Made by a program: the position numbers and the translations under genes. Shown here in pieces: positions 3,060 to 37,467 of a stretch of 46,455 nt of DNA. Every line of letters starts with the position of its first letter. Position 1 is the stretch's first letter. Under the pieces are notes generated by a model, which was given only the letters and a program-made list of their open reading frames with translations, ran no database searches and had not been told where the DNA came from. Source of the DNA: a virus; the IMG/VR virus record IMGVR_UViG_3300011420_000012, positions 1 to 46,455 of that record, one strand, 5' to 3'.

Positions 3060-3805
3060 CACGGCACAATCGGATCCACGCAGGCAAACCGGCCTTTTTT
3101 CTTGCACGGATGCGGGATGCAATCCTCATCGATGAGCCCATCGCCGTCGTTGTCCAGCCCGTCACCGCAGACTTCGACGACCGGCACGACGACCGGGTTC
3201 ACGCCGTAGAGACTCCGCGCGCCGTCGATGTCGTCCTGATCCAGCGTCCGAACCTGATCGCAGAAGCCGAAATTGGCTTTCATCGTCGCGGTGTCCACGG
3301 TACTGTGACCCAAGCCGAGGATGTGCCCGAATTCATGCGTGGCAAAATCTTGCAAGTAGATCCCGCCACTACAGGGCACGCCGGATTGCAGGACGGGATA
3401 CACGCCGTCGCGGATAAACATGTCCGCTTCCACGAGAAAGCCCGTGTTGTCGTACCACCAGTAGACGTTCCCGCCCGAGCAGTTGCCGGCATCATCACAG
3501 GGGGCGAGTTCGATCACGTTCACATTGTCCCGTGAGCCGGGCTCATACAAGCTGGTAATCCCCGAGCGGCGCGTCGTCAGCCCTTGAAACGTGAAGTGCA
3601 GCGGGATGCCCGCCTGCTCCGGCCAGTTGTTCGCGGCTTGGATCAACTCCGCCACCGCCTGCTCGGGTGTCATCTGCGCGCTCATCTGCGAGACGTTGAC
3701 GTAGAACGGCACCTCCAGCAGCGCCCACCGATGGCCGAAGAGGGTGTACGCCTCAGAGACGACGCCGATCGCGAGTAGGACGGTGACGAGGATGAGGCGA
3801 CGCAT
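3059..3805 (-). CDS. Secreted matrixin-type zinc metalloprotease
   Basis: 248 residues from the ATG at 3805, preceded by a perfect AGGAGG. Residues 1-20 are a Sec signal peptide (MRRLILVTVLLAIGVVSEA, cut before Y). The catalytic motif HEFGHILGLGHS (residues 157-168) matches the metzincin HExxHxxGxxH with the matrixin-like Ser after the third His. A Met-turn candidate (ATMKA, Met175) follows about 18 residues after the first His. The C-terminus has CGDGLDNDGDGLIDEDC, a calcium-binding type-3-repeat/MopE-like motif used in secreted bacterial proteins. There is no long propeptide or cysteine switch, as in many bacterial relatives. It should be exported and cleave extracellular protein. It lies after the lysis genes in the late operon, where morons are often found. 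The substrate is unknown. Confidence 0.9.
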   Translation of the reverse strand: MRRLILVTVLLAIGVVSEAYTLFGHRWALLEVPFYVNVSQMSAQMTPEQAVAELIQAANNWPEQAGIPLHFTFQGLTTRRSGITSLYEPGSRDNVNVIELAPCDDAGNCSGGNVYWWYDNTGFLVEADMFIRDGVYPVLQSGVPCSGGIYLQDFATHEFGHILGLGHSTVDTATMKANFGFCDQVRTLDQDDIDGARSLYGVNPVVVPVVEVCGDGLDNDGDGLIDEDCIPHPCKKKGRFACVDPIVP

Positions 3806-3815
3806 GTAACCTCCT

Positions 3816-4958: not shown

Positions 4959-6014
4959 TTACGCCTGCAGTTCCTCGAAAAAGACTCGTACGCAGGCCTC
5001 GACGTGCGACGGCCACGGCAGGCTATAGACGCCTTCCTCTGTGTGTGCGAGGCCGCCATTGGCGACCTTGGCGTGCTTCGCCATCAAGCGCATCCAGTCG
5101 TGATTGAACCCGTGCTGATGCGGTTTGATCCCTTCCTCCGGAAACATCGGCACGAACGGCCACGACTCGTTATCGAGGAACACATACGGGTCGTAGTTCG
5201 TCGCGCCTTTCGGCGTCGGGTAATCGCGCCGCGCGTGATAGACGACGAAGTCCCACCACGGTTCAGGGGGGCGTTCATCCGTGAGGAAGCTCCCGCGTGA
5301 ACTGAGCAGGCCGAAAGGTTTCGGGAACGCGTCTGGGTTCACCCCGCCCCACTGGCCGTGATTCATCTCGTTGCCGAGATCGAGTAAGACGAAAGACGCA
5401 TACGGGCGCAGCAGCTCTTGGGAGTACTGCCAGAATTCCAGTTGGTGCTGTTGCGAGGGCATCATTTGTTTCGCACCGGCGAAGACACACCAGAGCAGCA
5501 CCAGGCCCGCGTCACTGAACAGATCCGCCGTGCGTGTCACGATGTCGGCGTAGGCGGGTGTCATCGACGGCAGGAAGCCGGCGCCTTCGTGCATCCCCAG
5601 CACGCGCCCGAGATTCGCGCCTGCGGCTTTGCGCTGCTCGAGCACGGGGCGTACGTCGTCACCCTTCGCCACGCGTGCTGCCAGTTGCAGTTCCGTGGAA
5701 CCTTTGACCAGCCAGCGTTGACCGTTGCGGACAAACTGATCGCCCTGAATCGACAACGGGCCAGCCGTGGCCACCGGCACGAGATGGACTTCGGGCAGCC
5801 AGTCCTCCAGCACGACGCTATCGTTCACGGGCGCGAAGCCTTCCGCCGTGACCCACCGCTCCGCGCCCCCAACGCTATTCGTCGTAAATTCGAGAATGTC
5901 GTCGTGGTAGAACCCAGCGACCAGGCCGCTGTTGTCGTACGGCCGCAACATGACATTGGCGAGCAGGACCGGGACCGACTGCGGATCACGCACAATCAGG
6001 CGAATCGTTCTCAT
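4959..6014 (-). CDS. Glycoside-hydrolase-like TIM-barrel protein
   Basis: 351 residues from ATG 6014, which overlaps the stop of the SleB gene (ATGA, 6011-6014). Residues 1-80 look like a small beta-domain. The rest resembles the clan GH-A barrel: RNGQRWLVKGSTELQL, a strand ending in LLWCVFAG, then LLDLGNEMNHG, where Glu216 sits as the acid/base Glu of 'NEP'-like motifs. GGLAHTEEG near residue 320 offers Glu326 or Glu327 as nucleophile. There is no signal peptide. It could cleave a surface polysaccharide or cell-wall glycan in or around lysis, or be carried in the virion. The family assignment is by pattern only. Confidence 0.65.
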   Translation of the reverse strand: MRTIRLIVRDPQSVPVLLANVMLRPYDNSGLVAGFYHDDILEFTTNSVGGAERWVTAEGFAPVNDSVVLEDWLPEVHLVPVATAGPLSIQGDQFVRNGQRWLVKGSTELQLAARVAKGDDVRPVLEQRKAAGANLGRVLGMHEGAGFLPSMTPAYADIVTRTADLFSDAGLVLLWCVFAGAKQMMPSQQHQLEFWQYSQELLRPYASFVLLDLGNEMNHGQWGGVNPDAFPKPFGLLSSRGSFLTDERPPEPWWDFVVYHARRDYPTPKGATNYDPYVFLDNESWPFVPMFPEEGIKPHQHGFNHDWMRLMAKHAKVANGGLAHTEEGVYSLPWPSHVEACVRVFFEELQA

Positions 6015-6502
6015 GCGATCAGTCCTCGCTCGAGCGGTTCCACGAGAAACACATGCGCGCCGAGTTCGGCCATGAGGTCGAGACGCTTCGACCACAGCGG
6101 CGCGTTCGGCGATCGATAAAGGTCGGCTGTGAGGTAATGCGTGGCGCCGTGTGTCCGATCCCGCAGGCGGTGTTCAATAATCCCCACGGCGACCCACGCA
6201 CATTCCATCCAGGCGGCTTCACTCGGACTCTCCCCGCGCACGACGCGCTCGCTGATCTGCATCAGCCGCTGATGGTTCACATCCGTGCCCGGATTCCAGC
6301 AAGAGAATTGCTGCGGCGCCAACACCACGCCCTTGTAGGTCTTCTCTGCAGCCCGATACCGTTTATGCCGCGCGAGGCGGTTTTTAATCACCCAGCCAAT
6401 GCCGACGAGCCCCTCAATGGGTTCGCTGCGGCCTTCGGCCCAGAGCGTCGCCGCAAGCGCCGCGTATTCCGTGAGCGCCGTTTTGATCTCAGCTTCGGTC
6501 AT
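6011..6502 (-). CDS. SleB-type cell wall hydrolase (endolysin candidate)
   Basis: 163 residues from the ATG at 6502; an upstream GTG at 6538 is a weaker alternative. The Hydrolase_2/SleB pattern is clear: LWAEGRSEPIEGLVGIGWV with the catalytic-type Glu23, IKNRL, then VVLAPQQFSCWN, and a C-terminal ATHYL followed by PLWSKRL. SleB-family enzymes cut the glycan backbone of peptidoglycan. There is no signal peptide, so release would need a holin, and small membrane proteins flank the gene. This is the best endolysin candidate. Confidence 0.9.
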   Translation of the reverse strand: MTEAEIKTALTEYAALAATLWAEGRSEPIEGLVGIGWVIKNRLARHKRYRAAEKTYKGVVLAPQQFSCWNPGTDVNHQRLMQISERVVRGESPSEAAWMECAWVAVGIIEHRLRDRTHGATHYLTADLYRSPNAPLWSKRLDLMAELGAHVFLVEPLERGLIA

Positions 6503-6559
6503 CAGCGTTGAGGCGAGTCCTGTTACCGGGGAGGGCACAGGACTCGCCGCTTCGTCGTG

Positions 6560-19533: not shown

Positions 19534-19650
19534 TCAGGTCCTCCGGTAAGCGGGCGCTGTCGCAGTGACCGGAATCACCAGCGGGGCCGCACCCGCCACG
19601 ACAGCGACCAGGATGTTGCGACAGAGGCACCTACGCGCCGGTATTGCCAT
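19534..19650 (-). CDS. 38-residue hydrophobic peptide between capsid and beta-helix genes
   Basis: This frame starts at ATG 19650 inside the end of the capsid gene, runs 39 codons and stops one base before the beta-helix start codon. The peptide begins MAIPARRCLCRN and continues ILVAVVAGAAPLVIPVTATA, with a hydrophobic run of about 17 residues. The fit at both ends suggests translational coupling to the next gene. It may be only a relay frame; composition does not decide. Confidence 0.4.
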   Translation of the reverse strand: MAIPARRCLCRNILVAVVAGAAPLVIPVTATAPAYRRT

Positions 19651-20551
19651 ACGAATTGCGCCAGTCGATCGAATCCCACACTTCGCGGGCGCGCAGCTTA
19701 TACAGCCGGTTGCCGGTGCGGGCGTCGGTCATCGGGGCCGGCATATGGATCGGGCGCCGTTCCATATGCACGAGGCCGTTGCTGTCTTTGTCTTTCGGGA
19801 GCAGGTACCACGCATCCGTGTCCGCGGTGAGGAAGGGATTCACGACGACCGTGATGTCCAGATCCTTCATCGGGTTGATGTCGTTGTTCGCTTCGCCCGG
19901 AATCAGCGAGGACTTCACGATCCGCATCGCGTTGAAGCGGTTCGCCGGGGCGACCACGAGGTAGAACCCCTTCGCCGGGGCGACGATCTGGCCCGATTCG
20001 ATCTTCGTGTCGGTGTCCAGGTCGATGAACCCTTGCGCGAGGGAGGTCACGGAGAGATCGGCATCCGTCGAGGGCCGATTCTTCGCCGTGCCGCCGCGCT
20101 TCAGGGTGTGCGCGGTGTGGAACAACGCCAAGCCGTCCGCCGTGAGCTGCGTCGAGAACCCATTCTCGAGCACCGCGGCAAACTGCTTGTCTTCCACCTG
20201 GCGCATGGAGAAGACCAGGAACTTCGATTTCTTGGCGAGGATGTCTTCCTGATCGTCCTCTTCCGCCGTTTCGGACACCTCGAACATGAGGCCCCATTCG
20301 AGCGGGGTCACGTCCTTGGTATTCGCCTGCTGAATGAGGTCCGTGGCGTACTCTTCGCCTTCGGGCTTCTGCGGGACGTCGCCAAAGGGCGCGACGGTGA
20401 CGATGCGCTCGAACTTGCGCGTCGTGGTTTGCTTCCGACAGAGTTTCGGGAAAATCGGCTGCAGCTCGCGGACGTTTTTGTCGAGCAGCGCCGTCACCAG
20501 CTTGTCGACATTGTCGACATTGGCGGGAATCGTGCTTCGAATCTGTGCCAT
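19631..20551 (-). CDS. Major capsid protein
   Basis: 306 residues from ATG 20551, preceded by CAAGGAGCC. The N-terminal helix (NVDKLVTALLDKNVRELQPI) with RKQTTTRKFERIVTV, the middle FHTAHTLKRGGTAKN, and the C-terminal DLDITVVVNPFLTADTDAWY followed by a DSIDWRNSYGNTGA end match HK97-fold capsid proteins of the gpT-like group. No protease domain is fused and no separate maturation protease gene was seen. The gene is served by the promoter at 21383-21410, fitting high expression. It forms the capsid shell. Confidence 0.85.
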   Translation of the reverse strand: MAQIRSTIPANVDNVDKLVTALLDKNVRELQPIFPKLCRKQTTTRKFERIVTVAPFGDVPQKPEGEEYATDLIQQANTKDVTPLEWGLMFEVSETAEEDDQEDILAKKSKFLVFSMRQVEDKQFAAVLENGFSTQLTADGLALFHTAHTLKRGGTAKNRPSTDADLSVTSLAQGFIDLDTDTKIESGQIVAPAKGFYLVVAPANRFNAMRIVKSSLIPGEANNDINPMKDLDITVVVNPFLTADTDAWYLLPKDKDSNGLVHMERRPIHMPAPMTDARTGNRLYKLRAREVWDSIDWRNSYGNTGA

Positions 20552-23360: not shown

Positions 23361-23677
23361 CACGCCCTCCGAAGACCAGCAAACGGGCGCCGACTCTTCG
23401 CCTCTGGGCTCAAGGCTTTGATCTGCTGCGCCGGCCAGCCCATGATCTCGTTGACGGCGCGTGCCGTAGCGTCAATCTCTTCCGCGACCCGCGCGATTTC
23501 GTACGGGCGATCGGGACCGTGCGGCACTTTCGCCAACGCCGCATTCATGCGCCGCCCGTACCCCGCCGGCCCGTACGACTCACTGACCCAGGCCTGAAAG
23601 AGCTGCCAGCCGTCGCTCTGGAGCAAGTCCTTCAGTGCGCCGAGGGCGGGTGTCTCGTCGTCGCGATCACTGGACAC
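23360..23677 (-). CDS. Small protein between portal and GroES-like gene
   Basis: 105 residues; ATG 23677 lies inside the portal gene end, an 11-base overlap. The chain is helical with LGALKDLLQSDGWQLFQAWV near the start and a basic end (KSRRPFAGLRRA). The 'LL.s.gW..l..w' start is seen in small proteins next to phage portal genes, but no function is known. Confidence 0.65.
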   Translation of the reverse strand: MSSDRDDETPALGALKDLLQSDGWQLFQAWVSESYGPAGYGRRMNAALAKVPHGPDRPYEIARVAEEIDATARAVNEIMGWPAQQIKALSPEAKSRRPFAGLRRA

Positions 23678-25658
23678 GGGGCGCTCCTGGCGGCATCAAC
23701 GACGCCATGAGGGCTTGCAGATCGGGCGGCGGGGCCCCCACGCCGGGTTGTGGCCCGCCCGGATCCATCCCGCCCGCGGGCGGCAGGCCCATCTGCGGCG
23801 GCGGCGCCATGAGCGCCTTGAGGAACACGCTGGGATTGCGGATCTTGTAGACGCGCGCCCACTCTTCCGCGACCGATCGCATCACATCCGGATTCTGAAA
23901 CATCTGCATGAAGCCGGGGAACATCTTCGAGAGATTCCCAATCGCCACGAGACTCTCGTTGAAGTACTGCATCCGCCGCCCGGAATCGGCCGTCTCCACC
24001 GAGCCATACGGCTTGAACCGGAATTTGCCCTTGAGCATCTGGGCCGTGAACCGGCCATCGAAATCGGCCACGCCGCGCGCCTGCAACGCCTGGACGACTT
24101 CCGCGGGCGCTTCCAAGCCTTTGGGATCGGCTTCCAGGGTATCGATCCAGATCGCGTGCCGCAGTTCCATTACGGTCGCAATCGCCGTCCGCAGATGCGC
24201 GATCGGTTCCTCAATGCGGACATGGGAGGCTTGCGCGACCATTTCGTCCTGACCCAAGGTGCGCGACTGCCGGGATTGTGTGCCGACCGAGGCCACATCG
24301 GACAGCCCCGAAATGCGTTCCTTGAGCATGAACAACATCTGTTCCTGCTCAACGCAACTCGAGGGGACATCCTTGATATCCAGCTGTTGAATTTCGTTGT
24401 GATCGCGCACGGTGATCTTCCGGCCAATCCCGAACGGTTCGAGTTCCGGATCCCAGAGCGCGGTCGATAACACCGTCATCGGGGCATTGGTGCAGAGCGC
24501 CTGCCGATCGGCCTTCATGTTCCGCAAGGCGGTGTGTTCTTCGGCCATCGTCAACAGCTTCTCCGCGAAGATGTAGCCGTAGACCGAATTCCGGCGGGGA
24601 AAGAACACAAACGGCACACAGCGCGGCTTGCCGACTTTTTGCACGAACGTGTCGAGCTTGAGTCGCAGGAGGCAGCGGGTCTTCGCCCCCACCGTCGCGA
24701 CGTACCATTCTTCGCGGCCGTCCCCGTCCAGATCGCGCTTGATCGACAGTTCGTAGAGTTCCTTTTCCGCAGACGGGCCCCGCTGCGGCGCAACGATCGG
24801 CGCCGAGGGCGTGGTGTCCATCTCCACGTCGGATTCTTCCCCGAGCAACTTCACGGCCTCCTCGTCAAACACGCCGTCGTGCGCCCGTTCCTGCAGCAGC
24901 GGGACGCGCATCTTGAACCGCTTGGCGTACCCGAAGACTTCCCGGTGATGCTTCGCGTGCCCCGGCAGGAAGACGAAATCCCGCATGGAGATCACGTCGT
25001 ATTCCGGCCCGAGACGACGGGTCTTGGTGTATCGCCGTTCCACCTTGGCCGACGGCTCGCCGTCCTGCGCCGGGACCGGCTCGTCGCCGTCCATTTTCAG
25101 CTTGGGCGTGAGCGTCTTGTCGGGGCCTTCACTGAAGATCGGGCCGCCGCTCTCCGGGTGCAACTCCAGGGCGACGTCAACCGTTTCCGTCCGCCGGACC
25201 GTTTCGATCCGCTCCCGCACTTCCAAGATGAAGCAATCCTCGAGCAGCCCGCCATGCACGACTTTCGCGAGTTCGGCGGGGAGACCTTCTTCGTGGATCT
25301 GCCACTCGTGAAAGGCTTCAACAATCGGGGCCCGGGACGCGCTCTGGCCCCAGCCATCGACCACACAGAACGGTTCCACGCCGAAGATGGTCCGGAGCAT
25401 CCGGGCGCGGAGGGCATCCACGGATTCGGTAATAAACGGGCTCGTCAGGTCCGCCGCGCCGGGGAACGGGCGATCCTGCGCCTCGGACTGGCCTTGTTCG
25501 TAGAACCAATCGAGAAGATCGAGCGTGCCGCCGGTGTCAATCGTCTCAGACCGCGCGTTGAAGGCGTCCTCGACGTCTTGCACCAGATCGTTGGCGAGCT
25601 GCTCCCGTTCTTCCGCGGTCAGCTTGACGTCGAACGCCTCAGATTTCGCTCTGGCCAT
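23667..25658 (-). CDS. Portal protein
   Basis: 663 residues. The N-terminal helix-rich part (LANDLVQDVEDAFNAR; WFYEQG; DRPFPGAADLTSPFITESVD) matches the group of podoviral portals in which 'PFPGAADLTSPFITE' is a conserved stretch. The central wing and stem contain LRRTI-like helices, and LSDVASVGTQSRQSRTLGQD near residue 455 belongs to the typical 'G...........r.tat' region. A Pro/Gly-rich tail (PPPQMGLPPAGGMDPGGPQP) ends it. It forms the ring through which TerL packages DNA. It overlaps the next gene by 11 bases. Confidence 0.9.
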   Translation of the reverse strand: MARAKSEAFDVKLTAEEREQLANDLVQDVEDAFNARSETIDTGGTLDLLDWFYEQGQSEAQDRPFPGAADLTSPFITESVDALRARMLRTIFGVEPFCVVDGWGQSASRAPIVEAFHEWQIHEEGLPAELAKVVHGGLLEDCFILEVRERIETVRRTETVDVALELHPESGGPIFSEGPDKTLTPKLKMDGDEPVPAQDGEPSAKVERRYTKTRRLGPEYDVISMRDFVFLPGHAKHHREVFGYAKRFKMRVPLLQERAHDGVFDEEAVKLLGEESDVEMDTTPSAPIVAPQRGPSAEKELYELSIKRDLDGDGREEWYVATVGAKTRCLLRLKLDTFVQKVGKPRCVPFVFFPRRNSVYGYIFAEKLLTMAEEHTALRNMKADRQALCTNAPMTVLSTALWDPELEPFGIGRKITVRDHNEIQQLDIKDVPSSCVEQEQMLFMLKERISGLSDVASVGTQSRQSRTLGQDEMVAQASHVRIEEPIAHLRTAIATVMELRHAIWIDTLEADPKGLEAPAEVVQALQARGVADFDGRFTAQMLKGKFRFKPYGSVETADSGRRMQYFNESLVAIGNLSKMFPGFMQMFQNPDVMRSVAEEWARVYKIRNPSVFLKALMAPPPQMGLPPAGGMDPGGPQPGVGAPPPDLQALMASLMPPGAPRVQ

Positions 25659-25937: not shown

Positions 25938-26146
25938 CGCGCCTCCACCTGAATCCCCGCGGCCGTGAGGAGATCGATCAACGCATCCGCGCGCTGATCC
26001 CACGCCGCGACCGCCGTCCTCGCCGCCGCGATCTGACTCGTCAGGCGCGTCTTTTCGGTCAGATAGGACGCCTCCAGCGTCGCGAGGGCGGCTTCCTGTT
26101 CCTGCACGTAGCGGGTAAGACGCGCTTTCAGATCGGCACCCGCCAT
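25934..26146 (-). CDS. Small coiled-coil protein after terminase
   Basis: 70 residues from ATG 26146, overlapping the TerL stop (TGATG). One continuous coiled coil (LKARLTRYVQEQEAALATLE, then SYLTEKTRLTSQIAAARTAV) ends in a short hydrophobic helix. Tiny coiled-coil proteins between TerL and portal are frequent in phages; their role is unknown. Confidence 0.7.
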   Translation of the reverse strand: MAGADLKARLTRYVQEQEAALATLEASYLTEKTRLTSQIAAARTAVAAWDQRADALIDLLTAAGIQVEAR

Positions 26147-27795
26147 CAGTAGCCCCCTCGCCGCACGCGATGCGGCACGCGCCCGACACGGCGCCGCCGA
26201 TGCCCATGCCGCCACGTGTCGAGTTCGTCGGGATCGCGATCCTGCTGCGCCTTGCGGAGCGCGATCTGGTCCGCCTTCGACGGCAGATCGTGATCCCGTC
26301 GATACGCTTCCTTGGCCGTCGTGCGAAACGCCTTCGCCAGCGCAATTTCCGACGGCTTCGGCTGATAGAAGTTGTGAATCACGTACTCGGACGCGTTCAT
26401 CACATGCTCGAAGAACCCATCCTTTTTCGGCAAGCGGAGATTGCCGTCTGTCTGACTCACCCGACGGTGATCGTCGTCCCAGATATACCCAGCGGCGAAC
26501 GCCTCGAGCAGGACGGGCACCGATCCGGAACTCCGGGGGTTCCACATCTCAAACCGGGGATTGAGCAGGAACGCGGGTTCAAACGGTTGCGCGTACCGGA
26601 CGGGGACTTTCGACCCGTCGGTGGTCCGCTCGAACCAATCGTTCGGGTTCTCGTCACTCAGGACGAAGCGCCGCACGGAATGCAGCATGTAACCTTGCAG
26701 CGTCTCGACACAGGCCTTCCGGACGGTGTTGGTGTTGCTATCCGGGAGGGTCTTCAAGGCCACGCCGCATGTCGCGAGCGCCCGGACCGCGTTGACCGAG
26801 ACGCCTTGGGAGTTGCGATGACTGCCGGCCGGGTCGCCACAATGGACGAGGCGATGCTGCGGGAACCACTCCCGGGCGGTCTGCTGGACGTGTTCCGCAA
26901 ACCCGTCCTTCCCGTCCAAGGTCACATCTGAGCCCATGATCCCGCCAAGCAGCCAGAGCGCGCCCCACGGCAGAAACTGCGCGAAGACCACCGCGGGATG
27001 TTTCGCGCCAAAATCCCAGCCGGCGATCACGTCGACCAATGGATACGGCTGGAGCCCATTCGCGACATGCTGCAACGGATCAAAGCAGCCGGCATAGACC
27101 GGGGCGCCTTCGACGTTCGCCCCGCGAATCCCTTCCAACTTCGGCCCGCGCATCGGATGGCCCACGGGATACATCTGCTCCGCCGCCTGAATGTCCGCGG
27201 CGTCCAAGTTGTGTGCGTTGTCCCAGATCGAGGCCGACACATACAGGTGATCGGGATGGCTGTTGTCGTCGGGGAACATCTCTTTGTGGGCCAGCCAGTG
27301 CCCGTGATGCACCGGGTTCGCGTCCGCGAGGAATTGCTTGGGATACCCCGGCTGCGACAAGCGGATCATCCATTCCTTGGCGACGTCCTTGGGCACTTCC
27401 TCTAGCTGGCTGATAAAGATGCCGGCGACGGTGAAGCCGCGCGGCTTGGAGTGCATCGACGCAAGTTCACTGGACTTGAGGTGAATCGCGTAGAGTTTGG
27501 AGCCATTCGGAAAGGCATAATGCGATTCACTCGCATTCCAACTCCCATAGGGCACGCCCATGAGATCGCAGACGTGGCGATAATCAGGCACCAGTTTCGT
27601 GTGGAGGTCGTCTTCTTTCCACCGCGCCATGACCAGACTGATCCCGGGATATTCCTCGATGCGCATCCGCCACTTGATCAGACACGTCCAGGTTTTCGAG
27701 CTGCGAAACGCCCCTTCATGGAGGACGAAGCGCTCGGTCGCCTCGAGCACGCGGGCGGCCGGATCAGAGAGCGTCACGGTGGCCTGCGTGTTCAT
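26146..27795 (-). CDS. terL: Terminase large subunit
   Basis: 549 residues. The ATPase part has a Walker-A-type GAFRSSKT (residues 28-35) and a Walker-B-type VAGIFISQLEEV (123-134, with Glu132/133). The nuclease part has AGWDFGAKHPAVVFAQF (Asp261) and HCGDPAGSHRNSQG (Asp321), the acidic residues of the RNase H-like terminase nuclease. It cuts and pumps DNA into the head. The extreme C-terminus is strongly basic (RHGHRRRRVGRVPHRVRR). ATG 27795 overlaps the TerS stop (ATGA). Confidence 0.92.
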   Translation of the reverse strand: MNTQATVTLSDPAARVLEATERFVLHEGAFRSSKTWTCLIKWRMRIEEYPGISLVMARWKEDDLHTKLVPDYRHVCDLMGVPYGSWNASESHYAFPNGSKLYAIHLKSSELASMHSKPRGFTVAGIFISQLEEVPKDVAKEWMIRLSQPGYPKQFLADANPVHHGHWLAHKEMFPDDNSHPDHLYVSASIWDNAHNLDAADIQAAEQMYPVGHPMRGPKLEGIRGANVEGAPVYAGCFDPLQHVANGLQPYPLVDVIAGWDFGAKHPAVVFAQFLPWGALWLLGGIMGSDVTLDGKDGFAEHVQQTAREWFPQHRLVHCGDPAGSHRNSQGVSVNAVRALATCGVALKTLPDSNTNTVRKACVETLQGYMLHSVRRFVLSDENPNDWFERTTDGSKVPVRYAQPFEPAFLLNPRFEMWNPRSSGSVPVLLEAFAAGYIWDDDHRRVSQTDGNLRLPKKDGFFEHVMNASEYVIHNFYQPKPSEIALAKAFRTTAKEAYRRDHDLPSKADQIALRKAQQDRDPDELDTWRHGHRRRRVGRVPHRVRRGGY

Positions 27796-28085
27796 GCGGC
27801 CGTGCTCACCTTGACGAATTTCACCGTGTGTTGAATCGGCCCGCCTTCGGCGCCGGTGAGTTCCACTTGTTTCCGGGGTTGCCCGTGCCGATATTCAATG
27901 AGCGTCCGATTGGCCAACAACCGGGCCCGGACATCCTTATCCGATCCGAAGGCAATCCGCGCCAGCTCTTCGAAACACCGGATGGCGCCCGGCCCCGTGA
28001 GCTGATCAATCAGATCGGTGATGTCCGCACTGGACTTGTTCCGCACGCCTTTCGGCCGGCCGCCTTCGCCGCGTTTGTACGGCAT
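27792..28085 (-). CDS. terS: Terminase small subunit-like protein
   Basis: 97 residues. The start KRGEGGRPKGVRNKSSADIT is the 'GRPkGs.Nk' motif of phage small DNA-binding packaging proteins, followed by a helical region (DKDVRARLLANRTLIEYRHG). The end (GEGGPIQHTVKFVKVS-type) resembles small terminase relatives. It lies directly before TerL with a four-base overlap. It would recognise the packaging site. Confidence 0.75.
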   Translation of the reverse strand: MPYKRGEGGRPKGVRNKSSADITDLIDQLTGPGAIRCFEELARIAFGSDKDVRARLLANRTLIEYRHGQPRKQVELTGAEGGPIQHTVKFVKVSTAA

Positions 28086-30742
28086 TACCGCGCCCGTCCC
28101 CGGCCACGCGCCTGCATACTCTCGTGATCGGCCCCGTCCCCAAACCCAACATTCGCCCGCTCACTCGAGAAGACCAACGTGCCCGCCTGGAGTGCGACCG
28201 TCACGGCTTCGGCCGTGACCGTGCCGGTGAAGACCAGCGCACCCGCGGGAATGGGCGTGCTGTGGGTGTCGGCCAGACTGCCCACCTGCCCGGCGATCGT
28301 CAGCGATCCGACCGGCACCGGCAGCACCAGCGCCACGAGCGGCAGCTGCCCGCTCAGCGTCAGGGCGCCGACATCCGGCACCGCGACGACGGCGCCGCCA
28401 ATCGATCCCGCCACCCCGCTGAAGGTCAGCGCGCCGGCCGGGAGTCCGAGCGCGGTCGCAAGACTCGCCGCGAGCCCGGTATAGGTCAGTGCCCCCACGG
28501 GCAGCGGATCGGCCAGCGCGACCACCGCGGTCTGACCGGTGAACGTGAGCGTGCCGACGGGCGCGATCGTCGTCGCCTGTAGACTCGGCACGGTCCCCGC
28601 GAACGTCAGGGCCCCCGCCGGCACCGCAATGGTCACGTTGCTGCCGGGAATCGCCACACCGGGGACCTGGCCCGTGAACGTGAGCAGACCGGCCGGCACC
28701 GCGTCCGCGAATAGCAGCTGCGGCGCCTGGCCGGTATAGTTCACCTGCCCCGGCCCCGGGTCGAAGAACGCAATCGCAAAGTACTGACCGGCCAACGTCA
28801 GCGATCCGGCGGGCAGCGCGATGTTGCCCCCGGCGACGACCCGCGTCGGCGTCTGACCGGTGAACGTCAACGCCCCGGCCGGGACGGCAATCGAGGATCC
28901 GGCCGCCCCAATCGACACCGTCGGCGCCAGCCCGGCAAATGTCAGCAGCCCCACATCGGGGCCCACGAACCCAATGCCGACATCGCGGCCGATGAGCGTG
29001 AGCCCGCCCTCCGGCAGCGCGACACTGCCGCTCGTGGCCACCGTGGGCGCCTGTCCCGTCAGCGTCAGCAGACCCGCGGGGAGCGGCATCACACCGACGA
29101 GCAGCGGTGTCTGCCCGCTCCACGTCAACGCCCCGGCCGGAATGGCAATGGTCGTCGCCGCACTGACGGAGACCGTCGGGGCCGCGCCGCTGAACGTCAC
29201 GACACCGACATCGGGCCCGAGGAACGCCGAGGCGACCGTTTGGCCCGTCAGACTCAGCGCGCCCGCCGGAACCGCAAGCGCGGCCGCGCCCCCGACGGTC
29301 GGTGCCAATCCCGTGTACGTGATGGGACCAGTCGGCAGATCAATGATGAATTGGAACGCTGGACCCTGACCGGTGATCGCCAGACTGCCCGCGGGTACGG
29401 CGATCGTTGTGCCTCCCCCCGCCACGATCGTCGGCGCCTGGCCCGTGATAGTGATCGCGCCCACGTCCGGGCCGGCAAACGCCACCCCGACCGACTGCCC
29501 GGTGAACGCGACGACCCCGGCGGCGAGCGCCGTCGCGAACGCCAGATTCGGCCCTTGCCCCGCAAACACCAGCGAGCCCACGACCATTGCCAGCGGCGTG
29601 ATGACGCTGTTGACTTTGTTGCCGAGCAGCGTCGTGCCGACCCGCCAGCCCGCATAGAAGCGCGGGCCCATCAGCGGCGCCCAGACTTGTTGCACGACCC
29701 CCGCAGCCCCTTCCATATACGCCGTGTCGCCGGCCGACCAGTTCGACCCGCCGTCGGTGGACTTGGTGTAGTAGACCTTCGTCGTCGTGTCCATCACTTC
29801 GGAGCCGTCGCGTTTCCCGTTGTAGGCCACGTAGAGGGTGTTCGACGCCTGGTCGATGAACACTTGCGGGTAATAGTGATCGTCGATGTTGGTGGTGATG
29901 TTGCCCTTGGTCGTGATCGTCGCCGTGTCCGTGATGTCGTAGACGTTATGCACTGAGGACGCGTTGTCGCGTAGCGACACCGCCGCGAGAATCAGATGGC
30001 CGTCGCTATGCCGGACTGAGGCGCTGAAGCCCATCTGCCCGGTCAGGTCTGTCGCGCCGTCCGTGTGCGTCTGGATCGTGGCCGACTCGCTCGCCGACCC
30101 CGCGCTCGAGTCCCACAGTTTCAGCGTGAGCGCCGTGGCACTGGCGTCGTAGTAGACCGCCCAGCAGTCGTTGTTGTCACCCGTATTCGAGGCCGGGAAC
30201 AGGAGGCACTGGTCGAGCGTGGCTTCCACAAACGTGGAGGACAGCGACGTGCCCCACGACGCGCCGTTGTCCGTGGACCTGAAGAAGTCACGCTCGGCTC
30301 CGGCATCGACGTCGAACGCGCAGTAGAGGTAGCCGCTCCGTGTCTTGGTCCCGGACACGAAACAGCCCCGGCCCGCGACGGCCGTGTTGTTGTTTGCGAC
30401 CAGGACCTGCGTGCCGAGCGTGTCGCCATTCGTATCCAGCGACCGGTACAGAATGTCGTCCGCCGTGACGTCGAAGAACCAGCAGTGAATCTTGGTCCCG
30501 GTGTCTCCGGGCGTCCACTGGTCGTACCACACGTCGAACGCGATCCCGGTCGTCGCCGCCGAACTATCCACGTTGACCTGTCCGCCCCACGTCGCGCCGC
30601 CGTCCGTGGTTTTGGAATAGCCGAAGACGCCATCCCCGTCGAAGTAGAACCAATAGCCGATGTCGCGCGTCGTGAACACGACACTGCGCAGGCCACGCGC
30701 CGTGACCGCCACGACCGATGCGTCGATCGAGACATCCGCCAT
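28085..30742 (-). CDS. Asp-box propeller fused to about 23 short beta repeats
   Basis: 885 residues. Residues 1-380 look like a sialidase-type propeller with three Asp-box motifs: TTDGGATWGG (45-54), STDNGASWGT (156-165) and STDGGSNWSA (328-337). I cannot identify the catalytic Arg triad and Tyr of true sialidases. Residues 382-870 are about 23 degenerate repeats of 18-25 residues with consensus (V/L)PAGALTFTGQAP-x(6-10). There is no signal peptide. It starts the block just before TerS, so it should be a virion-associated or cell-surface-binding protein. The repeats may form a stalk. The reading is clear; the function is inferred. Confidence 0.7.
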   Translation of the reverse strand: MADVSIDASVVAVTARGLRSVVFTTRDIGYWFYFDGDGVFGYSKTTDGGATWGGQVNVDSSAATTGIAFDVWYDQWTPGDTGTKIHCWFFDVTADDILYRSLDTNGDTLGTQVLVANNNTAVAGRGCFVSGTKTRSGYLYCAFDVDAGAERDFFRSTDNGASWGTSLSSTFVEATLDQCLLFPASNTGDNNDCWAVYYDASATALTLKLWDSSAGSASESATIQTHTDGATDLTGQMGFSASVRHSDGHLILAAVSLRDNASSVHNVYDITDTATITTKGNITTNIDDHYYPQVFIDQASNTLYVAYNGKRDGSEVMDTTTKVYYTKSTDGGSNWSAGDTAYMEGAAGVVQQVWAPLMGPRFYAGWRVGTTLLGNKVNSVITPLAMVVGSLVFAGQGPNLAFATALAAGVVAFTGQSVGVAFAGPDVGAITITGQAPTIVAGGGTTIAVPAGSLAITGQGPAFQFIIDLPTGPITYTGLAPTVGGAAALAVPAGALSLTGQTVASAFLGPDVGVVTFSGAAPTVSVSAATTIAIPAGALTWSGQTPLLVGVMPLPAGLLTLTGQAPTVATSGSVALPEGGLTLIGRDVGIGFVGPDVGLLTFAGLAPTVSIGAAGSSIAVPAGALTFTGQTPTRVVAGGNIALPAGSLTLAGQYFAIAFFDPGPGQVNYTGQAPQLLFADAVPAGLLTFTGQVPGVAIPGSNVTIAVPAGALTFAGTVPSLQATTIAPVGTLTFTGQTAVVALADPLPVGALTYTGLAASLATALGLPAGALTFSGVAGSIGGAVVAVPDVGALTLSGQLPLVALVLPVPVGSLTIAGQVGSLADTHSTPIPAGALVFTGTVTAEAVTVALQAGTLVFSSERANVGFGDGADHESMQARGRGRAR
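28133..29599 (-). repeat. About 23 tandem protein-coding repeats
   Basis: In the 885-residue gene the unit PAGALTFTGQAP plus a variable linker recurs about 23 times at 54-75 base spacing. The DNA units are diverged (GGxxxCxTGGTCAGG-type core on the coding strand), so the array is ancient or selected at protein level. Direct recombination between units could change copy number. Confidence 0.7.
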
Positions 30743-31093: not shown

Positions 31094-31353
31094 CAGACCA
31101 ACCCCACAATCTCTGCGTCTGCGGGTTTCCCACGGCCAATCACAAAATCCTCGACACTTGCGAAACAGCCCTGCCGCGCGTGAATGGTGACGAGCTTGCG
31201 CCGCAACGAGGTCAAGAGTTCCCGCATCATCGGTTCGGTCCAGTCCGGATTGACCGGAAACGTCGTCTTGGCCAACCCGCCGGTATGCCCACACCGCCGA
31301 CACCCCCACGAGACGTAGAAAGCCGGCGGGCCCTGGATGACCGCATTAGCCAT
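31093..31353 (-). CDS. Small hypothetical protein with Cys pair
   Basis: 86 residues; ATG 31353 lies eight bases inside the DUF115-like gene. A single C-x2-C (WGCRRCGHTGG) near residue 18 and a later GCFASVED are present, so a partial zinc site is possible. It is mixed alpha/beta. The function is unknown. Confidence 0.6.
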   Translation of the reverse strand: MANAVIQGPPAFYVSWGCRRCGHTGGLAKTTFPVNPDWTEPMMRELLTSLRRKLVTIHARQGCFASVEDFVIGRGKPADAEIVGLV

Positions 31354-32218
31354 CGCCAGCTTCGATCAGCGTGCAATCGGCACTCGATTGCAGAATGTAG
31401 GCAAGCAACCCGTCCCCGTGAACCGTGACGACAAACTGACTCCCGTTGATCCGAATCTGCTGCAGGAAGTCTTCCGCCTGCTTCACCATCCACCCGCTAC
31501 ACCGGAACACCTTAGTGAGCTCGGGATGGCCGGTCGGGGCCACCATCATCGACACCCATTTGTCCTTGGCGTTTTCCGGCTGATCGAACGCGTGATGGCG
31601 TCCCTTCAGCCAGCAGCTATCCGCCCCAAAGAGGTCAAACCGCACATACCCCACCGTCCGCAGCAAACTGATCGCGCGAGTTAACACGGTCGTGCCGCCC
31701 CCGACGCCGAACCACTGGCCCAAGTAATGCGCGTCGAGCAGATCCTTCAGCGGCCCGCTCGAACCCGTCGCCGCGTGAAACATCCAGACATCGCGCCCCT
31801 CGACCACGTCCCAGGTTTCCGGAGCACACTGGGAGGCGAGCACATACCGACACCGCGGAATCGCCGGCTCGAGGAAGCGGGCATTCTCCGGCCGCGCATC
31901 CATCACGATCTGCGTCCCCGGATGGAGATAGTGGTCGAGCGCCCACCGATACGCGCCGTTGAGCGTGACCAACTTCGCGCCCTGATGGAGCAGACCGACC
32001 AACTCGGGCAGCGTGTCGGCCAACGACGGCCCACTGCCGACGAGACAGATCCGTGTGTGCTGGAGGGCTTGCGGCTTGATCTGCGGATAGGGCCGCCGAA
32101 TCGCCGATCGGACATTGGCAAGCAACTGGTCATCATCGACGTTGACTTTGCCAGAGAGTTCGACGCCGTCAAAGACGGACAAGCGATCATCCGTCACCGC
32201 GAGGGCGTCATTGAGCAC
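31346..32218 (-). CDS. DUF115 / MptE-like protein
   Basis: 290 residues from a GTG at 32218, with GTGGAG eight bases before it. The sequence TRICLVGSGPSLADTLPEL, then AKLVTLNGAYRWALD, then GTQIVMDARPENARFLEP is the pattern of DUF115/6-hydroxymethylpterin diphosphokinase MptE-like proteins. These are related to motility-associated (Maf) glycosyltransferases. FDLFGADSCWLKGRHHA further on agrees. The reaction is uncertain: MptE-type pyrophosphokinase or nonulosonate transfer are both possible. Paired with a methyltransferase just upstream, it may modify a surface glycan or virion protein. Confidence 0.65.
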   Translation of the reverse strand: MLNDALAVTDDRLSVFDGVELSGKVNVDDDQLLANVRSAIRRPYPQIKPQALQHTRICLVGSGPSLADTLPELVGLLHQGAKLVTLNGAYRWALDHYLHPGTQIVMDARPENARFLEPAIPRCRYVLASQCAPETWDVVEGRDVWMFHAATGSSGPLKDLLDAHYLGQWFGVGGGTTVLTRAISLLRTVGYVRFDLFGADSCWLKGRHHAFDQPENAKDKWVSMMVAPTGHPELTKVFRCSGWMVKQAEDFLQQIRINGSQFVVTVHGDGLLAYILQSSADCTLIEAGDG

Positions 32219-32786
32219 GAACGGGCTCCACGAGAAACACGCCCGAGTGCAACAGATCCCGCGCTTCAACCACCGTGCCCAGTTCCCGTAGCGCATCGCG
32301 CCACCACGTGAACGATTCGACCGTCAGATGCAACGATTCCCCGATCCAGACGCCGAGGTTGTCGGCTTGCAGGCACACCGAGAGGAACACGCCACGCCTG
32401 GCCACCTCTAGCAGCCGCGAGACCGCCAACATCGTGAACTGGGGCGGGACGTGCTCGAGCACATCGGTGCAGTAGACCCACTCGTGGAAGCCGACCGATC
32501 GCTTGAGATTCCCCCAGAGACAGACTTCATGGAACGGTAACGCGCGGGCCTCCTGGGTGAGCCCGGCATCCGTGATGTCGCAACACGTCACCGGAAACCC
32601 AGCCGCCTGCAGCGCCAGCGCGCCCTGTCCGGATCCACACCCGGCATCGAGCACGCTCCCGCGCATGGTCGTGCGGGTCATGTCGAGGAAGATCGGCAAC
32701 AGCATCACGCCGGGCGAGTGCGCCGCATACGCGGGGACGTCCCACATCTGGGCGTAGGTCTCGCGCGTCTGGGTGGTCAGATCCAT
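32208..32786 (-). CDS. SAM-dependent methyltransferase (class I)
   Basis: 192 residues from ATG 32786. SVLDAGCGSGQGALALQAAG is the glycine-rich SAM motif I. VTCCDITDAG follows as motif II, and EWVYCTDVLEHVPP is the acidic motif of class I methyltransferases that act on small molecules or sugars. No DNA-target recognition region (such as NPPY/DPPY) is present, so a DNA methyltransferase is unlikely. Its stop lies 11 bases inside the DUF115-like gene, so the two are translated together. Confidence 0.8.
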   Translation of the reverse strand: MDLTTQTRETYAQMWDVPAYAAHSPGVMLLPIFLDMTRTTMRGSVLDAGCGSGQGALALQAAGFPVTCCDITDAGLTQEARALPFHEVCLWGNLKRSVGFHEWVYCTDVLEHVPPQFTMLAVSRLLEVARRGVFLSVCLQADNLGVWIGESLHLTVESFTWWRDALRELGTVVEARDLLHSGVFLVEPVRAQ

Positions 32787-32787
32787 G

Positions 32788-33537
32788 TCAGGCTTTCCGG
32801 AAGACGATCCTGGCGTCATTCCCCCCCCCGCCGCCCCCAAAGCTCTCGTAATCCAGCCCAGCGCCGCCGTTCCACAGTTCCGTGTCTTCGGCGTCGGAGG
32901 TGAGTTTGCTCCAATAACTCACGGAGTCTATCTCGCCTTTATGGGTTTGGCTGAAATCCGGCAACGACCCGATATGGAAATTCTCGGACGACTGAAAGAC
33001 CCCGCTCGTATGCGCGGTGGTGTCAGCGGTCCCGTTGTCCACTTTGATGATCAGGAGGTTATTGACGGAGTCATGCTTGACGATCAGGAGATGGAAATTC
33101 GTATCCGGCGGAGCGCCAAAATTGTTGGCCGCGACGACATCACCCGAGGTGTACCCCGAGGCCCCGTAGGCCGTGAACCGGAAGCGATCTGTGCTGGAGT
33201 GAAAGTCTGCGCTGTACTCGCCGTCGGTCCCGCCCGCTTTATTGATGACACTCATCACCGTGCCATCCCCAATCGTACTGGGGGTCACCGAGATCCGGAC
33301 CCACAGCGCGATGGTGAAATCCGTGTCACCGGGCTTGAGGCTCGCGGGGTTCGTCCGGACCAGATGCCGGCCTGAGACCTCATAATCGAAGGCCGCCGCA
33401 TCGCCAATTTTCCCGGTGGCTGAACCCACGGTCGCGGCCGACTCCGAGAGCGTATTACTCCCGTGACTATCGGCGCGGCTGTTGCCGGCGGCTTCGTTGA
33501 GCTTCCAATGCGAGACGAGCCCTGTGAGTAGTGGCAT
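32788..33537 (-). CDS. LamG / concanavalin A-like lectin protein
   Basis: 249 residues. LVSHWKLNEAAGNSRADSHG is the typical LamG start ('W.lde.sg...D..g'), with DTDFTIALWVRISV and EIDSVSYWSKLTSDAEDTEL closing the sandwich. The end is Gly-rich (YESFGGGGGGND). Such domains bind carbohydrates or serve as virion adhesins. There is no signal peptide. It lies between the G8 gene and the methyltransferase. Confidence 0.8.
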   Translation of the reverse strand: MPLLTGLVSHWKLNEAAGNSRADSHGSNTLSESAATVGSATGKIGDAAAFDYEVSGRHLVRTNPASLKPGDTDFTIALWVRISVTPSTIGDGTVMSVINKAGGTDGEYSADFHSSTDRFRFTAYGASGYTSGDVVAANNFGAPPDTNFHLLIVKHDSVNNLLIIKVDNGTADTTAHTSGVFQSSENFHIGSLPDFSQTHKGEIDSVSYWSKLTSDAEDTELWNGGAGLDYESFGGGGGGNDARIVFRKA

Positions 33538-33542
33538 AACAG

Positions 33543-36500
33543 TTACTCCGACAACGCCGTATTCAGGGCCGTGAGTTCCGCCGCGGTTAACGTGTGGTCA
33601 TAGATCACCAAGCGATGCAGGATGCCCTTAAAGAATGAGCGATCGTCACTATGCTCGGCCCACGGATTCACGCCCACAAACATGTAGAAATTGGTCATGG
33701 TCGGCGGATTGATCGACGTACGCGTGAGCGTCCCCACAACGGACCCGTTGGCGTAAATCGTTTCCGTCAGCGGCGTCCAGACCAGCATGAGATTCACGAA
33801 CGCAGCGGAGGGGTCGGTGATTTCGCTCGACTCAAACGTATCGCCGACGTTGGCATTCAGCGCGGGGTAGTTGATCATCCCCGATCGGACATGCACCTGC
33901 AGGGGCGCACTCGCCGCCCCGCGATAGAAGACAATCCCATAGGGCGGGTTCGAGAGTTCGTTGATTTCCGGATACGGCCGCACATCCAAAATCCCGATGT
34001 AACTCGCCTGCCCGACGCCGCTGTAATAACTCGCCGCCAGCTTGAGCCGAATGCCGATTGTCCCGCCGCCAGCAAACGTATTCGGAAAGTTCGTCGCCGT
34101 GAGGTACGTGCCCGCTGGTTCCGCTTCGCCAGGCCAATCCGCGCTATGCGTAAACGTGATGGTCGGATTTAAATCAATCCCATCACCGCTCACGGAATAA
34201 TCGCTATGGTGGATCGTGAGATTTGACAGCGCGTCCACATCGGTCACCCGGTTCGGCGTCGATCCCCCCGTGGTTTCCGAGAACATATAATTCCCGACCG
34301 CGCCTAACGGGAGGGACGCCAGCGCATCGCTGGTAATGGCCCCCACACAGCCGAAGATTTCGGTATAGGTGGTGTCATCACACGAGCCCAGCGCGGCATC
34401 TCCGTTCACGGCGTAGGTTTCCTGCTGCGGGAAGTAGATCCGGAACTGCTGCGGGGTCGCCCCGTAGTGCCGCGCCGTGTAGGTGGTGGACAGATGCGGC
34501 CGATCGTTCGTGTCGAAACTCTCGATCGTCCCCGTCGCCGGCGTCGCTGGGGTGCCCGTCACTTGATAGGTAAAGTGCGTGCTGTCGGTGACGGTGATCT
34601 GAAACGTGCCGTTGTATTCCGTCTGCACCGCGCCGAGCACCGTGCGCCAGCGATTCGTCACGGAGTTATGCGCGCTCGAGGTGGTCGCCGTCACCGTCGC
34701 CCCGCTCCGGGTCAACGTCGTGGAGATCGCCGCTGCTTCGCCGTTGTCGTGGAAGCAGGCCCCAGAGGTTTGCCCGACCACCGCCGCGCCGCCGTAGTTC
34801 CACTCGAAGAGGAACGCCCGGTCGGTCAACCCAACCCCACACGCGGCATTGATCGCGACGAGGGTTTCAGCGTTCCCGCTAATCCCGGCCCAATCCACGG
34901 CATCGAAGGTCCAAGTGGCCGGGGTCCACGGCTCGGTCCCGTTCGTGAACCCGCTGAACCCCATGCGCTGCACGCCGATGTCCCCCCGACAGAGAAGATT
35001 ATTGACTTCCCATCGGCCACTCGCCGCGACCGAATTCGCGAGGCACGCCGCCACGTTTTGGATGTCCGGCTGATAGAAGATCACATCGTTCGTGGCGTAA
35101 TCTCCATTGACGAACCCGGCGAGATACCCTCGCCCCAGACTGTTGTACGGCCCCCGGACCTTGTAGTGATCAAATCGATACCGGGCCAACGGATACGCGA
35201 AGAACCCATACTCATTAATGTTCCACGTCGTGAAATGATCCACGATGCTCCACTGCGTCCCGCGCGCGCCATCCGGAGGACCGGTAGAATCGCTCTGGTG
35301 AAACCACGAGGTCATCCCATCGCTCATTGCGCCGTACGCTTCGTTGTACGAGAATTCTAGAATCGGCAGGGCGCTGATGATGACATCCGTCGATTCGGCC
35401 GCGTTGGTGACGTCCGCGCCCCGAAAATCCGGGCGGCTCACCGTCCGATCCGTGCCAGTGCTGTTGACGGCGCCGCCGTGCGTCAGCGTCGTGCTGTTGC
35501 CGAACTTATACCCGACCGAGTTCGCAATCTGCTGCGTATCGCCATACGCGCCCGCACACACGTTGTTGCGGAAATAGTTATAGAAGCTCCGGAAGTAGAC
35601 ACAGGCGCCTTCCCGCCCGCCCTGTTCTCTCGGATCGGAGCAGTTATTCGCACAGCCCGCCAGTAGCGTGCCCGATCCGTCGTAGGTTTGTCCGCGCGCC
35701 CCGATGACCAGATTGCCGTCGAGCATGTTATAGAACTCGTACCCCTCTTCCGACATGATCCCGGCGCCCGTGGCGTTCGTGGTATTGAAAATGACGTTGT
35801 CTTTGATGTGCAGGTACGAGCTGTCGTGAATCGTCAGCGGCCACTTGAGCGGCATGTCGATCACGTTCCCGAGAAACGTCGCTTGAAACCCCACGTCGCT
35901 CGCGTTCGCCGGTCCCATGAATTTATGGAAATGGATCGGATAACGGCCCTTCTGGTTCGTCCCGTCGTGGGTTTTCGCGCCGGTCCCTTCCACGCAATCG
36001 CTATCGTCGGTCAGCACGCCTGTGGTGAACTGGACGCAATCCAGATCCAGTGTCGTGGTCCGGCCCATGTTGATGAACGAGGCGTACCGGACATCCACCG
36101 TGGCCATATGATGAAACATGCTGTGCCCGCGCGCCGTACTGCCGGCGAGGGTGGAGAACTGCACCGAGCGCGTGAGGTTCGCGACATGCGGCAAGATTTC
36201 TAGGGTGCCAGTGGCCGTATACCCGCCAGGATGGGCATACGTCGCCCCGGCGGCTAACGTCAAGGTCGTGCCGCTGATCGTGCTACCGGCCTTGCGTTCG
36301 TTCTCGGTAACGAATCCGACGCCGTTATTGTTGTGGTCGGTCCCATCCGCCCCGGACGCAAACGGACTGCGGAACCGCGAATCAGGGAACGCGTACTCAT
36401 CCGTGTTATTCCAGCCGGAGGGCGTCGAGGCGAGATCCAAGACCGTTTCCGCCGCGCTGACTTCTTCCGCCAACCGCACGAACGGGGTTTTCACGCACCC

Positions 36501-37046
36501 GTTCACCGTGAGTTCGCCATCGACCAACAGCCCGATCCCGAATTGCTTGGGGTCCGCGGAGGTATCCGGCGCGCCGTTGAATTCGACATCCGCCGTCACG
36601 CCACAGAAGGGATCGGCCGTGCTCCCGATGCGCAACGCGCCGTCCGAAAAGACTTGCAGTGTCCCGACCCGGATGCGCCGGGCGACCGCTTCGGAGAATT
36701 GCAACGCCCCATGCACGCCGAGATAGGGAATCGTCGTGGTGCTGTCCACGTCGTAGGTGACCGTGAGGCCTGTCGCAATGCACACCCGGTCACTGGCCCC
36801 AGGCACGACGCCGCCGCTCCACGTCGCCCCACTGCTCCAGTTCCCAGACACGGCGGCGGTTTTCGTGACCGCGCCGCTCAGATCGGGAATCTCGGACATC
36901 GTGACGGCCGTACACGCCACGCCCCCCGCCGGCACATCGTTGCTATTGCGAATAACCACGCGTTGCGGCGCAGCCGGCGCCACGAACTGGGGCCACCCCG
37001 ACGCCAGCACCAGCACCAGCGCGCGACGCGCTAGAACCCCAGCCAT
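33543..37046 (-). CDS. Secreted G8-domain beta-helix protein (CEMIP/TMEM2-like) with LamG-like C-terminus
   Basis: 1167 residues from ATG 37046; a GTG at 37085 would add 13 residues but would mask the signal peptide. Residues 1-28 (MAGVLARRALVLVLASG) look like a Sec signal. Residues 67-187 form a G8 domain (GNWSSGATWSGGVVPGASDR, then a strand repeat ending in GELTVNG). GRYPIHFH (residues 367-374) followed by LTIHDSSYLHIKDNVIF and SEEGYEFYNMLDGN match the parallel beta-helix of CEMIP/TMEM2 hyaluronan-degrading relatives. A small beta domain (SGATVTATTSSAH) follows. The last 215 residues resemble LamG. I cannot confirm catalytic residues. It should be exported and bind or cut a matrix polysaccharide. 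Confidence 0.82.
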   Translation of the reverse strand: MAGVLARRALVLVLASGWPQFVAPAAPQRVVIRNSNDVPAGGVACTAVTMSEIPDLSGAVTKTAAVSGNWSSGATWSGGVVPGASDRVCIATGLTVTYDVDSTTTIPYLGVHGALQFSEAVARRIRVGTLQVFSDGALRIGSTADPFCGVTADVEFNGAPDTSADPKQFGIGLLVDGELTVNGCVKTPFVRLAEEVSAAETVLDLASTPSGWNNTDEYAFPDSRFRSPFASGADGTDHNNNGVGFVTENERKAGSTISGTTLTLAAGATYAHPGGYTATGTLEILPHVANLTRSVQFSTLAGSTARGHSMFHHMATVDVRYASFINMGRTTTLDLDCVQFTTGVLTDDSDCVEGTGAKTHDGTNQKGRYPIHFHKFMGPANASDVGFQATFLGNVIDMPLKWPLTIHDSSYLHIKDNVIFNTTNATGAGIMSEEGYEFYNMLDGNLVIGARGQTYDGSGTLLAGCANNCSDPREQGGREGACVYFRSFYNYFRNNVCAGAYGDTQQIANSVGYKFGNSTTLTHGGAVNSTGTDRTVSRPDFRGADVTNAAESTDVIISALPILEFSYNEAYGAMSDGMTSWFHQSDSTGPPDGARGTQWSIVDHFTTWNINEYGFFAYPLARYRFDHYKVRGPYNSLGRGYLAGFVNGDYATNDVIFYQPDIQNVAACLANSVAASGRWEVNNLLCRGDIGVQRMGFSGFTNGTEPWTPATWTFDAVDWAGISGNAETLVAINAACGVGLTDRAFLFEWNYGGAAVVGQTSGACFHDNGEAAAISTTLTRSGATVTATTSSAHNSVTNRWRTVLGAVQTEYNGTFQITVTDSTHFTYQVTGTPATPATGTIESFDTNDRPHLSTTYTARHYGATPQQFRIYFPQQETYAVNGDAALGSCDDTTYTEIFGCVGAITSDALASLPLGAVGNYMFSETTGGSTPNRVTDVDALSNLTIHHSDYSVSGDGIDLNPTITFTHSADWPGEAEPAGTYLTATNFPNTFAGGGTIGIRLKLAASYYSGVGQASYIGILDVRPYPEINELSNPPYGIVFYRGAASAPLQVHVRSGMINYPALNANVGDTFESSEITDPSAAFVNLMLVWTPLTETIYANGSVVGTLTRTSINPPTMTNFYMFVGVNPWAEHSDDRSFFKGILHRLVIYDHTLTAAELTALNTALSE

Positions 37047-37068: not shown

Positions 37069-37467
37069 TTAGGGGGTACCCACACGCGGTGTGCCGGGCG
37101 GTGCCGGCGGCATCAGCGTCGGTGCCTTGACAAAAGGGTTCGAAAAGGCAGACCGCCCGCTACCCGCCGTATTCACCGCAATCACCGTGGCCCGATACGT
37201 CATGCCGGCCACGAGTGTCCCCAGCTCGGGCACCGTGAGAACAATATCGTTCGCCGCGGTGGGGGTGGGTTTCCCGAGGGACTTGGTGAGGAAGATCGGC
37301 CCGAGCCCGTTGTTGGCAACGATCTCGAGGTCATAGCGGTCCGTCGTCGCATGGTTCGCCGAGGCCGCAAACGACACCAGCGACGTCGCCGTGACCGGTG
37401 TCGGGGTTTGGGCCACGCTCGTCGCCGGCAGGAGAAGCAGCGCGAGAACCGCAATCAATGCACGCAT
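37069..37467 (-). CDS. Secreted fibronectin type III-like protein
   Basis: 132 residues with a clean Sec signal (MRALIAVLALLLLPATSVAQ, cut before T). One FN3-like sandwich follows: DRYDLEIVANNGL, then MTYRATVIAVNTAGSGRSAF. There is no catalytic motif. It lies 22 bases before the G8 gene and, with it, forms a pair of exported proteins at the start of the late block. The AAGGGG upstream of ATG 37467 is a fair ribosome site. Confidence 0.78.
   Translation of the reverse strand: MRALIAVLALLLLPATSVAQTPTPVTATSLVSFAASANHATTDRYDLEIVANNGLGPIFLTKSLGKPTPTAANDIVLTVPELGTLVAGMTYRATVIAVNTAGSGRSAFSNPFVKAPTLMPPAPPGTPRVGTP

Follow-up and report, generated by a model that had tools for sequence, protein, structure and literature searches.

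A tailed phage encodes a G8/CEMIP-type beta-helix protein with a predicted signal peptide

Introduction

A gene of a tailed phage encodes a protein of the G8/CEMIP family that begins with an N-terminus of the export type. It lies on the minus strand at 33543-37046 of the window, the 46,455-nucleotide stretch analysed here (positions 1 to 46,455 of IMG/VR virus record IMGVR_UViG_3300011420_000012). Its product of 1167 residues carries Pfam matches to G8 and CEMIP_beta-hel above the gathering thresholds, with TMEM2 as the top fold match. Bacterial and animal members of the family are already known; a phage member that appears to be exported would be new, as no earlier description was found in the literature searched. 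Papers that combine "G8 domain" with "phage" all concern animal proteins or disease, as far as their titles and abstracts tell, and NCBIfam provides no name for the window protein.

The G8/CEMIP gene in its phage context

The contig is that of a genuine tailed phage. Genes for the large terminase subunit (26146-27795; PF04466, PHROG 2), a SU10-type portal protein (23667-25658; PF23899, E = 1.3e-14) and the major head protein (19631-20551; PHROG 371 and 133) all lie on the minus strand, as does the G8/CEMIP gene, whose GC content (0.61) is similar to that of the rest of the phage. Given these structural genes and the phage-like GC, the G8/CEMIP gene is a phage gene; mis-assembly or a host fragment was ruled out by the matching GC and the flanking phage genes. 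The gene starts at an ATG (37046), with an in-frame GTG at 37085 as a possible alternative. Scanning with the portal gave no relatives of the window phage and scanning with the terminase gave a single 5.5-kb contig, so that the phage is left with no close kin and no host assignment.

Several other minus-strand genes of the window deserve mention. An SleB-type cell wall hydrolase (6011-6538; PF07486, E = 4.2e-13) is a probable lysis enzyme. An MptE-like protein (PF01973) and a methyltransferase-like gene (31346-32840), located between a LamG gene and the terminase, may serve in glycan or host-surface modification. An 885-residue protein (28085-30742) has a weakly BNR-like start followed by many repeats of the LTFTGQAPTV type. 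A matrixin metalloprotease of secreted type (3059-3814; PF00413, E = 4e-13; HEFGHILGLGHS) combines a rule-predicted signal peptide with a CGDGLDNDGDGLIDEDC tail; it has no relative in named phages, and its weak similarity to a protease family of Myxococcus hints at a possible host of the Myxococcota type. A phage-derived metzincin is known in Listeria (PMC8235301).

Domains, predicted fold and conserved residues

The G8 domain occupies residues 75-191 (36474-36824, minus strand; PF10162, E = 2.4e-10, and 2.1e-13 in a six-frame search), and the CEMIP beta-helix segment residues 362-501 (35544-35963, minus strand; PF24606, E = 1.1e-14). In a Pfam search of the window protein they scored 40.8 bits against a curated cut-off of 22.9 and 55.2 bits against 27.3, respectively, far beyond chance. 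The beta-helix segment contains the motif GRYPIHFH (residues 367-374, at 35925-35948) as well as H407, E433 and E437. Both the G8 domain and the GRYPIHFH signature of CEMIP/TMEM2 proteins had been proposed in an earlier note on this DNA, and both are borne out by these profile matches. Further towards the C-terminus, residues 773-842 (34521-34730, minus strand) match PHROG 9998 (E = 3.8e-9), a phage family of unknown function.

The whole protein, modelled without templates, gave confident coordinates over much of residues 61-450 and low confidence over the roughly 500 C-terminal residues (664-1167). Among solved structures, this model is most similar to TMEM2, with Z = 24.8 over 530 residues compared with 20.4 for the next fold. 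When residues 55-670 were modelled by themselves (mean pLDDT 67.6), the TMEM2 ectodomain again came first (Z = 23.7, 467 residues, 3.4 Å; next fold 20.2), so that TMEM2 leads the next fold by 3.5 to 4.4 Z units across both models. Foldseek agrees for the shorter model (E = 3.4e-13), and a sequence-profile search of the PDB returned TMEM2 as its only match (E = 5.6e-14), with the motifs GRYPVHFH, TVHG and EDGIE lined up in the alignment. Structure prediction against CEMIP/TMEM2, which the earlier note had offered as a check, thus came out in favour of its reading: as modelled, the window protein is a TMEM2-type right-handed beta-helix into which the G8 domain is integrated. Ranked behind TMEM2 are phage tailspikes and many enzymes that act on polysaccharides, among them alginate lyases/epimerases, RbmB and capsule depolymerases.

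Seven residues of the window protein (R368, Y369, H372, H374, H407, E433 and E437) are invariant in all 17 phage and bacterial proteins compared. Between the G8 domain and the CEMIP helix, the window protein has about 145 residues fewer than TMEM2, and both Pfam and this shorter spacer indicate that the inserted lectin-like (GG) domain 1 of TMEM2 is absent. As that domain is implicated in hyaluronan degradation, the name "hyaluronidase" should not be assumed for the phage protein.

Viral and cellular relatives

When viral sequences and genomes were scanned directly with the window protein alone, no relative came up, and signature patterns were used instead. Three such scans of IMG/VR, in which most viral pattern matches were due to chance, identified six further contigs that encode the family; this number is a minimum, as the patterns allow no variation at the signature residues. 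Among 50,697 named phage genomes, no relative of the window protein or of four of its viral relatives was detectable. The earlier note had known of no well-studied phage protein of this kind, which agrees with the papers and named phage genomes searched; the six further IMG/VR contigs show that the window protein is not unique. The closest phage relative, from contig G004 (37% identity over 622 residues), also groups with the window protein in the tree (86/94). The tree of the family requires three or more switches between viral and cellular labels, which indicates that phages took up the CEMIP-type fold repeatedly; a single viral origin of all seven proteins is rejected. The pairing of the G002 and G003 proteins on long branches may be an artefact.

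The surroundings of the viral genes vary. The G002 gene is near a tail spike gene, that of G003 lies between fibre and head-closure genes, and that of G004 is part of a late structural operon; going by gene names read from the sequence, the G011 gene follows tail and spanin-like genes and the G025 gene is upstream of a terminase-like gene.

The nearest cellular relative found is a secreted-type protein from a Nitrosomonas MAG (E = 8e-76, 562 aligned columns). Similar G8/CEMIP genes occur at least three times in one Nitrosomonas MAG (L050, L051 and L053; two are cut at contig ends). Only 4 of 398 genomes drawn from the phylum of this MAG gave a strong match to the subfamily profile. Relatives on Roseobacter plasmids are located in polysaccharide-synthesis clusters, amid genes for glycosyltransferases, sulfotransferases and polysaccharide export. 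This location of bacterial relatives in their own polysaccharide clusters, and the acquisition of the family by phages more than once, would suit a host-derived moron with which an infected cell or lysogen shapes its own biofilm matrix, the virus not being helped directly. We consider such a role very unlikely; in the part of the window's genes that was scanned, none was recognised as an integrase or as another gene for lysogeny.

Signal peptide and export

N-termini were judged by a rule that looks for a charged n-region, a hydrophobic h-region and an AxA-like cleavage site, a crude measure. Residues 1-25 of the window protein (36972-37046, minus strand) form a predicted signal peptide with cleavage at MAGVLARRALVLVLASGWPQFVAPA/APQRV and a rule score of 4.83. 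Two nulls calibrate this value: 16 of 1223 internal positions passed the rule and three of these scored higher than the window protein, and of 9200 shuffled N-termini 312 (3.4%) passed at some score. Among the minus-strand genes of the window, the rule was passed by only three, those for the G8 protein, an FN3-like protein (37069-37467) and the matrixin-like protein (3059-3814). The signal peptide that had been called likely from the sequence finds its support in this rule-based test.

Four of the seven viral family members have export-type N-termini, three by the rule (the window protein and those of G004 and G011) and one by eye only (G025, which has a hydrophobic export-type start but fails the rule). 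The proteins of G002, G003 and G015 have no signal peptide by the same test, and the Nitrosomonas MAG protein passes weakly. Cysteine content does not separate exported from virion-type proteins. Export of the window G8 protein from the infected cell is likely, judging from its N-terminal sequence.

The main alternative is a virion protein, a tailspike-like depolymerase or adhesin whose hydrophobic N-terminus is unused for export, or which is exported and then attached to the virion. Two relatives that have no signal peptide adjoin a tail spike gene (G002) or tail fibre and head-closure genes (G003), which makes a virion role plausible for some relatives, and the late structural operon around the G004 gene and the tailspikes among the best fold matches point the same way. 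For the window protein we nevertheless think a virion role unlikely: neither Pfam nor PHROG revealed an N-terminal virion-anchoring domain, the gene is upstream of the terminase and apart from the tail genes, and the export-type N-termini of the window, G004, G011 and G025 proteins argue against it.

Sec signal peptides also occur in a group of fibre-like late proteins from IMG/VR (L067-L073, L077 and L080), in which strong signal peptides precede a common head domain (e.g., MRKLLLALALVLACAPRAAA/QITPTYSFVAGTVINPDEVNANF; six distinct sequences). Their counterpart in the window is without a signal peptide.

The LamG-like end and neighbouring genes

The C-terminal part of the window protein (about residues 984-1166; 33549-34097, minus strand) is a LamG/ConA-like domain. 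It has no direct Pfam LamG match at significance, and is homologous to a separate 316-residue LamG protein of G004 (E = 1e-28, 32% over 192 residues) that itself matches Laminin_G_3 (PF13385; 32.6 bits against a cut-off of 27.6); the LamG-like end described earlier is confirmed by this route. In G004, the LamG gene directly precedes the G8 gene, whereas in the window protein the two parts are fused in the opposite order. Such a fusion or fission is good evidence that both parts work together. The two adjoining G004 proteins both have export-type N-termini by eye, although that of the LamG protein fails the rule. A C-terminal tail consisting of FLK[VM]IIR and hydrophobic residues is also common to both (L027 5879-6829 and 6826-9261) and is possibly a sorting or anchoring tag.

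Directly upstream of the G8/CEMIP gene, across a gap of 22 nt, is the gene of the small FN3-like protein (37069-37467, minus strand; PF00041, E = 0.00098, below the cut-off), which has a rule-predicted signal peptide. Directly downstream is the gene of a separate LamG-like protein without a signal peptide (32788-33537, minus strand; PF13385, E = 4.5e-10).

A LamG/ConA-like domain would also be expected of a non-catalytic exported lectin or matrix protein that attaches to polysaccharide; such a protein could act as a decoy, for instance, or form a coat limiting superinfection or re-adsorption to debris. In line with this, one careful study found that the purified human TMEM2 ectodomain did not degrade hyaluronan and had no assignable active site (PMC10206443). 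The set of invariant R, Y, H and E residues across phages and bacteria, common with the human protein, looks more like a working site, and we regard a purely binding role as quite unlikely.

Proposed function

The reading that we favour, with about as much doubt as confidence, is that the window protein is a beta-helix enzyme or lectin that leaves the infected cell by the Sec pathway and acts on an acidic exopolysaccharide in its surroundings. The earlier note had suggested an enzyme that degrades or binds polysaccharide and is exported by infected cells, or an unusual depolymerase, a reading that the present results support in part. The tailed phage would make the protein during infection, and the N-terminal signal peptide would send it through the host Sec pathway. 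The exported protein would form a long right-handed beta-helix, ending in a LamG-like domain that binds carbohydrate, and would act on acidic exopolysaccharide or a capsule surrounding the infected cell, with the invariant H372, H374, H407, E433 and E437 as the most likely active or binding site. The most likely benefit to the phage would be a loosened matrix, through which progeny could spread and reach new cells.

More tentatively, the protein may belong to a Sec-exported late module that remodels the matrix around infected cells and that would comprise the G8/CEMIP enzyme, a LamG lectin and the FN3-like protein, joined in relatives by fibre-like proteins that have signal peptides of their own, and possibly by the window matrixin protease. 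We think such a module rather doubtful; if real, it would act outside the virion and be the phage equivalent of toolkits that degrade extracellular matrix.

In human CEMIP and TMEM2, the catalytic site and even the activity are unsettled, the activity of TMEM2 being disputed. A soluble phage member that lacks the lectin insertion reduces the candidate site to the few residues that the phage and human proteins have in common, and assays on it could be simpler. An exported enzyme of this kind would also widen the range of phage depolymerases from virion tailspikes to enzymes exported by the infected cell, which would be relevant to biofilm biology.

Comparison with known systems

The ectodomain of human TMEM2 (CEMIP2; PDB 8c6i) and its paralogue CEMIP (KIAA1199/HYBID) have the same G8-integrated right-handed beta-helix as predicted for the window protein, and share with it the GRYPxHFH, VHG-type and EDGxE motifs, but are only 18-19% identical to it. 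TMEM2 has a membrane anchor, in place of which the window protein has a predicted signal peptide. R265, D273 and D286 of TMEM2 sit in the inserted lectin-like domain that the window protein lacks, and mutation of residues of this domain is reported to reduce hyaluronan degradation (PMC10206443). Bacterial G8 proteins (from the Nitrosomonas MAG and from plasmids of Leisingera, Salipiger, Ruegeria and Antarctobacter) likewise combine G8 with the CEMIP helix, but are cellular, and some are annotated with calcium-binding-repeat, PA14, LamG or type I secretion domains. We know of no activity data for bacterial or phage members of the family.

Phage tailspike depolymerases (Sf6, CBA120 TSP2 and Klebsiella capsule depolymerases) are also right-handed beta-helices, phage-encoded and directed at polysaccharides, but are virion proteins without a signal peptide and, to our knowledge, without G8/CEMIP sequence motifs. 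The streptococcal phage hyaluronidases (HylP, PL16) are phage enzymes against an acidic polysaccharide capsule, but they form a triple-stranded beta-helix and belong to a different family (PMC11669647). A parallel for export is Lys44, the secreted endolysin of Oenococcus phage fOg44, which lyses the cell wall, a target unlike that proposed here, yet shows that a phage enzyme can be exported during infection by means of a Sec signal peptide (PMC6116005).
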